Shown: positions 2,080-4,500 of the stretch, one piece after another
Layout: the number at the start of each line of letters is the position of its first letter
Numbering within the stretch: position 1 is the stretch's first letter
Assembly: GCF_014698845.1 (NCBI RefSeq)
Contig: NZ_JACJTV010000004.1
Span: forward strand, 186,001 to 250,000
Direction: 5' to 3'
Length of the DNA stretch: 64,000 nt
Source of the DNA: Coleofasciculus sp. FACHB-1120
Lineage (GTDB): Bacteria > Cyanobacteriota > Cyanobacteriia > Cyanobacteriales > FACHB-T130
Notes under the pieces: model-generated
Databases searched by the model: none
Told to the model about the DNA's origin: nothing
The model's input: only the letters and a program-made list of their open reading frames with translations
Translations under genes and position numbers: made by a program

Positions 2080-2571
2080 ATGATGCCTCGCCTCGCCTCG
2101 AAAATTGAAGCCATTCTTTATCTCAAGGGTAAGCCGATCTCGGTTAGCGAAATTGCCGAATATGCGGAATGCGATCGCGATAATGCCGAAGATGCCCTGA
2201 TTGAACTGATGACTGACTATGCCCATCGGGATAGCGCTCTGGAAGTAGTGGAAACGCCCGAAGGCTTCACCTTACAATTGCGATCGCCCTTTCAAGGTTT
2301 GGTGGAGGCGTTAGTTCCGCTAGATTTAGGGGTGGGAGCCTTGAGGACGCTAGCAGCGATCGCCCTCAAAGGTCCCATTACTCAGTCTGAGTTAGTCGAT
2401 TTGCGCGGTTCAGGAGCTTATCAGCACGTTCAAGAACTGGTCGAACTGGGTTTTATCCGCAAGCGCCGACAAGCTGATGGTCGCTCCTACTGGTTACAGG
2501 TTACAGAAAAATTTCATCAATATTTTGAAGTCGAACAACTCCCCCAACTGACTCAGCAGGATGCACCGTAA
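2080..2571 (+). CDS. scpB: SMC-Scp complex subunit ScpB (chromosome segregation/condensation)
   Basis: A 163-residue winged-helix protein of the ScpB kleisin-associated family. It starts with LASKIEAILYLKGKPISVSEIAEYA (first winged helix), continues through the family core, and has a second winged helix around GPITQSELVDLRGSGAYQHVQELVELGFIRKRR. ScpB dimers bind ScpA and regulate the SMC ATPase during chromosome compaction. Length fits the short cyanobacterial form. Two adjacent ATGs (2080 and 2083) can start it; both sit directly after a repeat array with no Shine-Dalgarno sequence. scpA is not adjacent. Confidence 0.88.
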   Translation: MMPRLASKIEAILYLKGKPISVSEIAEYAECDRDNAEDALIELMTDYAHRDSALEVVETPEGFTLQLRSPFQGLVEALVPLDLGVGALRTLAAIALKGPITQSELVDLRGSGAYQHVQELVELGFIRKRRQADGRSYWLQVTEKFHQYFEVEQLPQLTQQDAP

Positions 2572-2712
2572 AACCTGCTACTTGGTGTTACAGAGAGCAT
2601 CTTTTTAAAAAAATCTCTCTATTGACTTACACCTAATAGCCAATAGTAAGGAGTAGCCAAACAACACAATCGTTTACAGTAGAGGGGAAGCTACTCAAAT
2701 CTTTTTATTCCA

Positions 2713-3072
2713 ATGGTGTTTAACCCTGAATTGTTCGACCGCGAGCCTGAAGATGTACAAGCCAATCAGCTCCTCCAATATATTCAGCACCAATCTCCAG
2801 AAGTTTTAGCGCGGGTTGCGAAGTCTGTTACGCCTGACATTAAGCAAATCATCTCGCAGAACGTTCAGGGACTGGTGGGAATGCTTCCCTCAGAGAATTT
2901 TAACGTTCAAATTACGACCGATAGAGAAAATTTAGCAGGTCTGTTGGCATCAGCAATGATGACTGGCTATTTCTTACGCCAGCTTGAACAACGGATGCAG
3001 CTGGATGAATCGTTGACTGGTTCTTCTTCCCTGTCTCATAAACCTTCTAACGGCGAAAAATTCGCCGATTAA
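2713..3072 (+). CDS. DUF760 domain-containing protein
   Basis: A 119-residue protein matching the DUF760 family of cyanobacteria and plastids. The start is FNPELFDREPEDVQANQLLQYI, followed by a helical LARVAKSVTPDIKQIISQNVQGLVGMLP block and the conserved LAGLLASAMMTGYFLRQLEQRM. The molecular function is unproven. It is soluble, without signal peptide, and ends in a short unconserved Ser-rich tail. It is a single-gene unit between intergenic regions. Confidence 0.8.
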   Translation: MVFNPELFDREPEDVQANQLLQYIQHQSPEVLARVAKSVTPDIKQIISQNVQGLVGMLPSENFNVQITTDRENLAGLLASAMMTGYFLRQLEQRMQLDESLTGSSSLSHKPSNGEKFAD

Positions 3073-3308
3073 GTCGAGTCAACTTAACCAGGGATATATC
3101 ATCTGCGATCGCATTTCTGTCTGCAATTCTATCTTTCGCCCAAGAGAGAGTCTTGTTTCGATGAGAAGTTATCGCCTATTTTTGGCATTTTAGGCGATCG
3201 CTTCAGTTAAACTTGCTCATTCCATTACCAACTTGCGATCGCATAGTTGGCACCTAGCCAATTGGCTTCCTGTTTCAGGGAATTTCCCCTCTGAGCCAAA
3301 AAATAGTT

Positions 3309-3404
3309 TTAGCCGCCAGCCGCAAAAGCAGCCAGTATCAAAATTGACAGTAAAAGACCCGGACTAAGCATCAGCGCTAAGGTTAAAATTTCATTAAATT
3401 CCAT
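3309..3404 (-). CDS. 31-residue hydrophobic membrane microprotein
   Basis: On the minus strand an ATG at 3404 opens a 31-codon frame ending in TAA: MEFNEILTLALML, then SPGLLLSILILAAFAAGG. An AGGAG ribosome binding site lies about 12 bases upstream of the ATG. The peptide is one membrane-spanning helix with an acidic N-terminus, of a size and layout like the small subunits of photosynthetic complexes (Psb, Pet, Psa, Ndh families), but it matches none that I can name. No other gene explains this stretch. It is likely real, function unknown. Confidence 0.55.
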   Translation of the reverse strand: MEFNEILTLALMLSPGLLLSILILAAFAAGG

Positions 3405-3506
3405 TTTATTGCACCACTCCTAAAGCTCACCTAACCGATAGCGATCCTAACACGACAACCAGGGTTTCAGAAGCAATAACCCCAATGAATAATCATTTCA
3501 AAATTT

Positions 3507-3557
3507 AATAATTTAGCAAATATTAAATATTTTAAATTTAATGTTTGCTAAATTATT
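3507..3557. repeat. Long AT-rich hairpin
   Basis: Arms 3507-3528 and 3536-3557 are 22 bases each, complementary at all but one position, with a 7-base loop. The stem centre reads TTTAGCAAAT / GTTTGCTAAA. There is no T-run after it. It may be an RNA structure, a protein site or a mobile repeat; nothing else in the sequence decides. Confidence 0.6.
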
Positions 3558-4110
3558 AGAGACTCCCACCAATACTTCTAATACCCAATCTGGTAGATTA
3601 TCTGCCATTCCTAGAATCCAACTTTACCCGGTCGTAGGGTAAGGTTATTTTAGGATGAGACAGAATTAATATAATTTAACGGTTTTACTCAACGCCAACC
3701 CCTAAATCTCCCATATTTGAGATTTTATTGGAGCGTTTTACCTCAATCAAATATTTGCTTGCACCGCCCTTTTTTTGAACTGCGGCTAAAGATTTCAAAT
3801 TTTTGTAAAAGTTTTTCTTCTAACCCCATTAAAATGCCTTGATTTAAGAGAATTTGGCATTTAAGCAAGATTAAAATTTTATAGAGAATATAAATCAAAA
3901 AATATTTAGTAATCAGAAAACAAGGAAAAAAATGTTTTAGGTTTTTTCTGTAATTGATAGCTAAATTTGACGGCTATTATTTTTAGGTAATTTGACCTAT
4001 ACAAATAGGCATAAATTTTGATACCTGTAAATACTTCATGTATAAAAATTTGCAAATCTTAAAAGTTCTTGTTAGATTTCAGAGAACGCCATAGAAGATG
4101 ATAGCCAGCG
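3558..4110. other. AT-rich intergenic region without recognised gene
   Basis: About 550 bases of strongly AT-rich sequence upstream of the rhodanese-like gene. I find no open frame with a ribosome site, no tRNA and no known RNA motif. It presumably carries the promoter of the gene at 4111. Confidence 0.5.
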
Positions 4111-4500
4111 ATGAATAAGCTCTTTTGGATTATTCCGACACCGCCAACGCTACAAGCCCAATCTCGTGTTTATGACCTGAAAGCGCGTCTAGATTGGGGT
4201 GAACCGGCTTTGACGATTATTGATGTGCGCGATCGCAGTCAATTTAATATTAGCCACATCATGGGAGCCATTCCCATGCCAATGAACGAATTAATAGACC
4301 GAGTCCTCACCAATGTGGAACTTACCCGCGATATCTACATTTATGGTGAAACCGATGACGAAACAGCAGTTGGTGCGGCAAAACTGCGTGCAGCTGGCTA
4401 TCAAAAAGTGTCTGAAATCAGAGGGGGCGTGGCGGCGTGGAAAGCAGTAGGCTATCCAGTTGAGACGATTCTGACTGTGTTAGCTGTTAACGAATCGTGA
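4111..4500 (+). CDS. Rhodanese-like domain protein lacking the catalytic cysteine
   Basis: A 129-residue single rhodanese domain. It shows the family blocks LTIIDVRDRSQFNISHIMGAI, the helix after PMPMNEL, and the C-terminal IRGGVAAWKAVGYPVE. The active-site loop, normally Cys-X3-5-Arg after a hydrophobic strand (as in VVYC), reads IYIYGETDDETA, with Gly in place of Cys and acidic residues in the loop; the whole protein has no Cys. It therefore cannot carry a persulfide in the usual way and may be a regulatory or binding domain. There is no signal peptide. Confidence 0.82.
   Translation: MNKLFWIIPTPPTLQAQSRVYDLKARLDWGEPALTIIDVRDRSQFNISHIMGAIPMPMNELIDRVLTNVELTRDIYIYGETDDETAVGAAKLRAAGYQKVSEIRGGVAAWKAVGYPVETILTVLAVNES

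Follow-up and report, generated by a model that had tools for sequence, protein, structure and literature searches.

The small subunits of photosystem I, photosystem II and the cytochrome b6f complex consist of one helix, and NdhP and NdhQ are short single helices of cyanobacterial NDH-1. Helices of the KdpF, AcrZ and MgtS type act as regulators of a single transporter, protease or translocase. Two further cyanobacterial small proteins are SliP4 and Norf1, the latter of which we take to be AtpTheta. Residue counts given in PMC5126843 put PsbT, PsaM, PetL, PetM and PetN at 29–36 (PsbT and PsaM at 31 each, Table 2), NdhP and NdhQ at 40 and 46, and Norf1 at 48, while SliP4 has 37 (PMC12850537). 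The first five are thus close in length to the protein studied here, Norf4 with 31 residues, whereas NdhP and NdhQ are longer. SliP4 and Norf1 are tied to energy metabolism and resemble Norf4, at the level of their descriptions in these sources, as small cyanobacterial proteins.

Norf4 of Synechocystis sp. PCC 6803 was described by Baumgartner et al. in 2016 as a protein of 31 amino acids with one predicted membrane span and unknown function, which was FLAG-tagged and detected on Western blots (PMC5126843). As stated in passages of the same paper, its transcript overlaps gap1 and was proposed to have a dual role, its expression rises mildly when nitrogen is removed and is low in the dark, and homologues are found in 51 genomes including UCYN-A. 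A search by name found no later study of Norf4, although its coverage of subscription papers was thin and a later study may exist; no other description of the protein was present among the matches listed in broader literature searches.

Identity and coding nature of the frame

The window analysed here, the whole stretch of 64,000 nucleotides of Coleofasciculus sp. FACHB-1120, contains a 31-residue frame that a sequence-only reading had called an unnamed membrane microprotein. The frame and its surroundings comprise the following features.

3309..3404, minus strand: norf4 orthologue (almost certainly), 31 codons plus TAA stop; translation, family conservation, published Norf4 primers
3321..3398, minus strand: predicted single hydrophobic helix, residues 3–28; AlphaFold2, hydropathy, 100-degree periodicity
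3417..3421, minus strand: AGGAG, 12 nt ahead of the ATG and possibly a ribosome-binding site; sequence, sister-genome comparison
3405..3459, minus strand: upstream stretch, putative 5' UTR or promoter; sister-genome alignment
2713..3072, plus strand: convergent neighbour gene of the DUF760 family; Pfam, E 1.8e-32
3065..3091, minus strand: terminator-like stem-loop and T run where norf4 and DUF760 converge; consensus scan only
4111..4500, plus strand: rhodanese-domain gene on the other flank; window ORFs, Pfam

Translation of minus-strand positions 3404–3309 gives MEFNEILTLALMLSPGLLLSILILAAFAAGG, followed by TAA, in a gap of approximately 1 kb between the DUF760 gene and the rhodanese-domain gene. 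Because 98 ORFs of at least 25 amino acids lie wholly or partly within the first 9 kb of the window, frame length alone is no evidence, and it is conservation of the family that establishes the frame as real. A peptide search of 40 related genomes gave matches in 38 at E ≤ 10, of which 37 are convincing (E ≤ 0.003) and the remaining one, in G031, is at chance level (E 2.5); all 30 loci taken from this search have exactly 31 residues and a stop. The full alignment holds 123 loci (99 distinct nucleotide sequences and 86 distinct proteins, with some genomes represented twice), from which 26 loci with chance-level matches, L103–L128, were excluded. The stop falls at the same codon in 123/123 loci, and the start is ATG in 120, GTG in two and TTG in one. 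Pooled dN/dS is 0.23, not near one, over 36 disjoint close pairs, not all of which are phylogenetically independent and many of which are near saturation. The open-frame control separates the coding frame less well than these tests: across the 99 distinct sequences, one antisense frame over norf4 stays open 59 times and one other sense frame 34 times. Taken together, comparative sequence analysis confirms norf4 as a genuine, very widely conserved cyanobacterial membrane microprotein.

The window and its sister genome differ at four coding positions of norf4 (2.5 synonymous and 1.5 nonsynonymous differences). Nucleotide conservation in this pair alone does not single out the coding frame, since the non-coding stretch 3' of norf4 (window 3130–3308) is nearly as conserved. 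By eye, this stretch holds a GGGAAATTCCC palindrome and GCGATCGC sites, and it is possibly a long 3' UTR.

The published norf4 primers correspond to the protein ends MTADQLL and MGSFAKGG (PMC5126843). Both are exact in L129 (Synechocystis salina) and in L075, while the forward primer has exact matches in L074 and L057 as well; the window copy and the primer-matched loci match one profile. The window copy is 48% identical to L036 and 45% to L057, which are taken to be Synechocystis-type members, and it agrees with Synechocystis Norf4 in its 31 residues, one membrane span and sequence family. From these comparisons the window gene is almost certainly a Norf4 orthologue, and the protein is not unnamed. 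Its neighbour is different, with DUF760 adjoining norf4 in the window and gap1 in Synechocystis. Translation of Norf4 has been shown in Synechocystis by others (PMC5126843), and would apply to the window copy by homology.

The sequence-only reading, which knew no match for the peptide, was right in this respect, though the family had already been named: searches of Pfam, NCBIfam, PHROGs, Rfam and the PDB gave nothing usable, with no significant match in Pfam, NCBIfam or the PDB. The best candidates were rejected as not significant, namely a tRNA-modifying enzyme in the PDB (8iey, E 0.087, profile positions 13–29), DUF3675 in Pfam (E 0.091, in 5/30 members) and phrog_9177 (E 0.0021, in 2/30 members, window residues 1–19). 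As no Pfam, NCBIfam or PHROGs model gives a significant match, annotation may plausibly pass Norf4 over. A tblastn search of annotated phages with a single Prochlorococcus-type peptide (E ≤ 10), a 31-residue query of little power, found no cyanophage copy, and none was confirmed with a nine-member Prochlorococcus-type alignment among 27 IMG/VR pattern matches.

Upstream of the frame the earlier claims held in part. The AGGAG is present at 3421–3417, but its distance of 12 nt before the ATG is farther than usual, and it is not kept in the sister genome, which reads AGTAG. Across the family an SD-like tetramer is enriched, occurring upstream in 35/99 sequences against a shuffled mean of 9.5 and a largest shuffled value of 17, yet this is a minority of the sequences. 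Counted by eye in the alignment, 48 of the 55 upstream bases (3405..3459) are identical with the sister genome, and the consensus scan reported no sigma-70-like site on the minus strand there. The NtcA-type box has the consensus GTAN8TAC; none lies beside norf4, and the window as a whole holds seven against six expected.

Distribution and gene neighbourhood

A profile search was performed over 386 genomes of the phylum, comprising 186 Cyanobacteriia and 200 from other classes. norf4 was found in 168/186 Cyanobacteriia genomes with a per-genome best E of 5.2e-8 or better. Three of the other 200 genomes match at E 0.02–0.09; these were counted as chance, leaving 0/200 convincing. A broader profile gave no convincing match at E ≤ 10 in the 18 class genomes without norf4, the completeness of this tally being deduced from the kinship order of the listing. 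Family f41 was sampled with 57 genomes, every one of which matches. In addition to psbB and psbC, G140 carries eight other CP43-like chlorophyll-binding genes, as SS120 does, and from this gene set we infer that f41 is the Prochlorococcus/marine Synechococcus group. The 2016 paper states that alpha-cyanobacteria lack Norf4 homologues (PMC5126843), whereas 57/57 genomes of the presumed alpha group match here; judged by these profile matches, norf4 is more widely distributed than was then described. In the family holding Synechocystis and Crocosphaera, 49/50 genomes match, and the sole miss is 79% complete.

Thirteen genomes without norf4 carry both the psaA/B and psbB/C families, among them G117, which we take to be Thermosynechococcus BP-1, and G261, presumably Gloeomargarita. 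As the BP-1-type genome is without norf4, the gene is dispensable. A further one of the 13, G300, belongs to family f40 with the Thermosynechococcus-type genomes; one of its psaA/psaB-family genes (C5:11966-16361) appears as two overlapping matches broken by a stop, through sequencing error or a true break. G084 has neither norf4 nor DUF3082, while G253 of the same genus has norf4. The 2.3 kb surrounding norf4 in G253 matched nothing in the DNA of G084, so deletion and decay are indistinguishable there.

Gene neighbourhoods were compared at 41 loci (the window and 40 others) using mechanically called ORFs of at least 70 amino acids, not all of which can be genuine genes. The most widespread neighbour cluster occurs in 11 loci, and none occurs in all 41. 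The order ispE-DUF3082-norf4-pdhB-secD-secF is found in 9/11 f41 loci, with ksgA before the block in eight, and this shared order supports norf4 orthology within f41; L043 has DUF3082 nearby and pdhB-secD-secF as in the f41 block. In six loci a PF02636 methyltransferase lies upstream, and in five of these a 3-hydroxyisobutyrate dehydrogenase-like NAD-binding dehydrogenase lies downstream. The norf4 blocks are thus lineage-specific and, because gene context varies, no operon points to one complex. Among the 18 norf4-minus class genomes 17 have DUF3082 and 17 have DUF760, so neither gene tracks norf4. The tail-to-tail arrangement with DUF760 recurs at 7/41 loci, from four families and including the window, and an eighth locus has DUF760 divergent upstream; by comparison of coordinates, the two genes are also tail-to-tail in all six symbiont-type genomes considered below.

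The helix and its conserved face

The single hydrophobic helix proposed from the sequence was borne out by AlphaFold2, which models one helix over residues 3–28 (mean pLDDT 95, a confidence reached for almost any hydrophobic 31-mer), and by a 19-residue hydropathy above 1.6 in 86/86 distinct proteins. Its acidic start also proved general, with an acid within residues 2–6 in 84/86 distinct proteins, and only one of the 86 has a basic residue in positions 2–8. Position 29 is K or R in 31/86 and D or E in 6/86. The acids near the start together with the basic residue at position 29 suggest an N-out, C-in topology, in which the acidic N-terminus would probably face the lumen or periplasm and the GG end the cytosol.

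The conservation moment over residues 6–28, scanned on a 5-degree grid from 60 to 180 degrees, reaches its maximum of 9.8 at 100 degrees (shuffled mean 3.9, p 0.003), the period that one continuous helix with one buried face would give. Residues L9, L13, G16, S20 and F27 form the conserved face, with L12 and M24 at its edges, and constitute a new candidate contact face. L9, L13, P15, L19, S20, F27, G30 and G31 are invariant in 86/86 distinct proteins and G16 is kept in 85/86; G16xxxS20 is a small-xxx-small motif, and the P15-G16 step lies within the helix. P15, L18, L19 and A28 are conserved yet off the centre of the face.

Retention without photosystems and possible partners

Four genomes of the spheroid-body type (G171, G206, G288 and G436) were matched by coordinates to EtSB, RgSB, EcSB and uoEpiScrs1. 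The first three are named diatom endosymbionts (of Epithemia turgida, Rhopalodia gibberula and Epithemia clementina) and the last is not so named; together with two UCYN-A-like genomes (G407 and G408) they make up the symbiont-type set. norf4 is intact and open in all six. Among the four spheroid-body-type genomes, psaA/psaB are absent in two, the other two having only fragments of them that mostly carry stops, and psbB/psbC are absent in one and fragmented in three. The UCYN-A-like genomes keep psaA/B and neither has intact psbB/psbC. G408 contains, despite this, an open 347-codon CP43-like (IsiA/Pcb-type) chlorophyll-binding gene at C1:1021868-1022659; in G407, of the same genus, the psbB/psbC family is represented by one broken fragment only.

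Compared with a free-living relative, the four spheroid-body-type norf4 copies show 1–4 nonsynonymous and 13–19 synonymous differences. In simple neutral simulations with equal rates for all changes and a capped distance for uoEpiScrs1, 0/20,000 runs per genome were as conserved as the observed gene. The youngest symbiont pairs give synonymous to nonsynonymous ratios of 4:1, 6:3 and 6:2, from small counts. Since norf4 is intact and constrained where psaA/B and psbB/C are lost or fragmented, these comparisons argue strongly against a photosystem role, contradicting the hint of a photosystem subunit in the sequence-only reading. Loss of the photosystems with respiration and thylakoids kept is described in passages of PMC5638926 and PMC11070190, the latter reporting that diazoplasts retain respiratory electron transport and thylakoids without photosystems.

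Marker genes were tested in 14 genomes, namely the six norf4-plus symbiont-type genomes, six norf4-minus genomes, the window genome and one Prochlorococcus-type genome. Both petD and ndhA are present in 14/14, with and without norf4, and COX1 is present in the six symbiont-type and the six norf4-minus genomes; in the symbiont-type six, all three are open. As norf4-plus and norf4-minus genomes keep all three, the presence profile cannot choose among the corresponding complexes, including the cytochrome b6f complex hinted at in the sequence-only reading, and a partner of Norf4 may work without it.

The explanation we favour, at a probability of roughly 0.45 for the whole, is that Norf4 would be one transmembrane helix whose L9-L13-G16-S20-F27 face docks on a larger membrane protein, which Norf4 would assist or stabilise as a subunit, or regulate. 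The partner would belong to machinery common to respiration and photosynthesis in the thylakoid or cytoplasmic membrane, as suggested by the survival of norf4 after loss of both photosystems. The helix-packing mode is probable, with the reservation that the high conservation of P15, L18 and A28 off the face speaks against packing onto a partner and that the face could also serve homo-oligomerisation. Placing the partner among electron-transport or ATP-synthase complexes is tentative; within these we would rank NDH-1 and terminal oxidase first, followed by cytochrome b6f or ATP synthase. Structures of b6f have been solved from lineages expected to bear norf4, and the PDB sequence search found no such chain, which is why NDH-1 and the oxidase are preferred; PetG, PetL, PetM and PetN showed no significant Pfam or PDB match to Norf4. 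Structures of NDH-1 come from Thermosynechococcus, of which the BP-1-type genome has no norf4. An NDH-1 small subunit would fit the retention of norf4 with ndhA, although NdhP and NdhQ show no sequence match. That Norf4 is an overlooked accessory helix of a respiratory or cyclic electron-transport complex, NDH-1 or the aa3-type terminal oxidase, is on its own rather unlikely. If true, such a helix would occur almost everywhere from Prochlorococcus to the diatom endosymbionts that have lost photosynthesis, and would have gone unseen in structures because the usual source of NDH-1 lacks the gene.

Norf4 may instead regulate a single transporter, protease or translocase without being an electron-transport subunit, which is possible but somewhat more doubtful than an electron-transport or ATP-synthase partner. 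Its absence from 18/186 class genomes is as expected of a modulator and it lies just before pdhB-secD-secF in 9/11 sampled f41 loci, but pdhB is near in only 10/41 loci and secD/secF in only 11/41, and no neighbour is universal. Self-association of single helices into an oligomer, acting as a pore or through curvature or lipids, is improbable: the G16xxxS20 motif, the conserved face and the conserved P15-G16 would all suit it, whereas the invariant L9, L13, F27 and terminal GG of the 86 proteins would be at least as compatible with a fixed heterologous partner. It is very improbable that conservation here mainly reflects an RNA antisense to a convergent gene, the peptide being incidental. The gap1 overlap and dual role proposed in Synechocystis (PMC5126843), the convergence with DUF760, where a terminator-like stem marks the junction, and the conserved 3' stretch point that way; against them stand the dN/dS of 0.23, the fixed frame and stop in 123/123 loci, different neighbours in different lineages, the protein seen on Western blots (PMC5126843) and the absence of an Rfam match within 2500–4200. 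Least credible is the reading of Norf4 as a small subunit belonging to either photosystem or to their antenna, for which the PsbT- and PsaM-like size, the restriction to the oxygenic class in our sample and the low expression in darkness (PMC5126843) might speak, since norf4 stays intact in the four spheroid-body-type genomes without intact psaA/B or psbB/C (and under constraint there) and in the two UCYN-A-like ones without intact psbB/psbC, is absent from the 13 genomes with both photosystem gene families (the split gene of G300 noted), and no photosystem or b6f small subunit gives a significant PDB or Pfam match.

Norf4 is thus a very short, highly conserved cyanobacterial protein of a known family. 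For the favoured docking helix, the conserved face supplies residues to test, and because norf4 persists where both photosystems are gone, its candidate partners narrow to machinery that outlasts photosynthesis. Prochlorococcus-type genomes of 1.6–1.8 Mb keep norf4, which, if their identity is confirmed, speaks for a housekeeping function among the phototrophs that are most streamlined.
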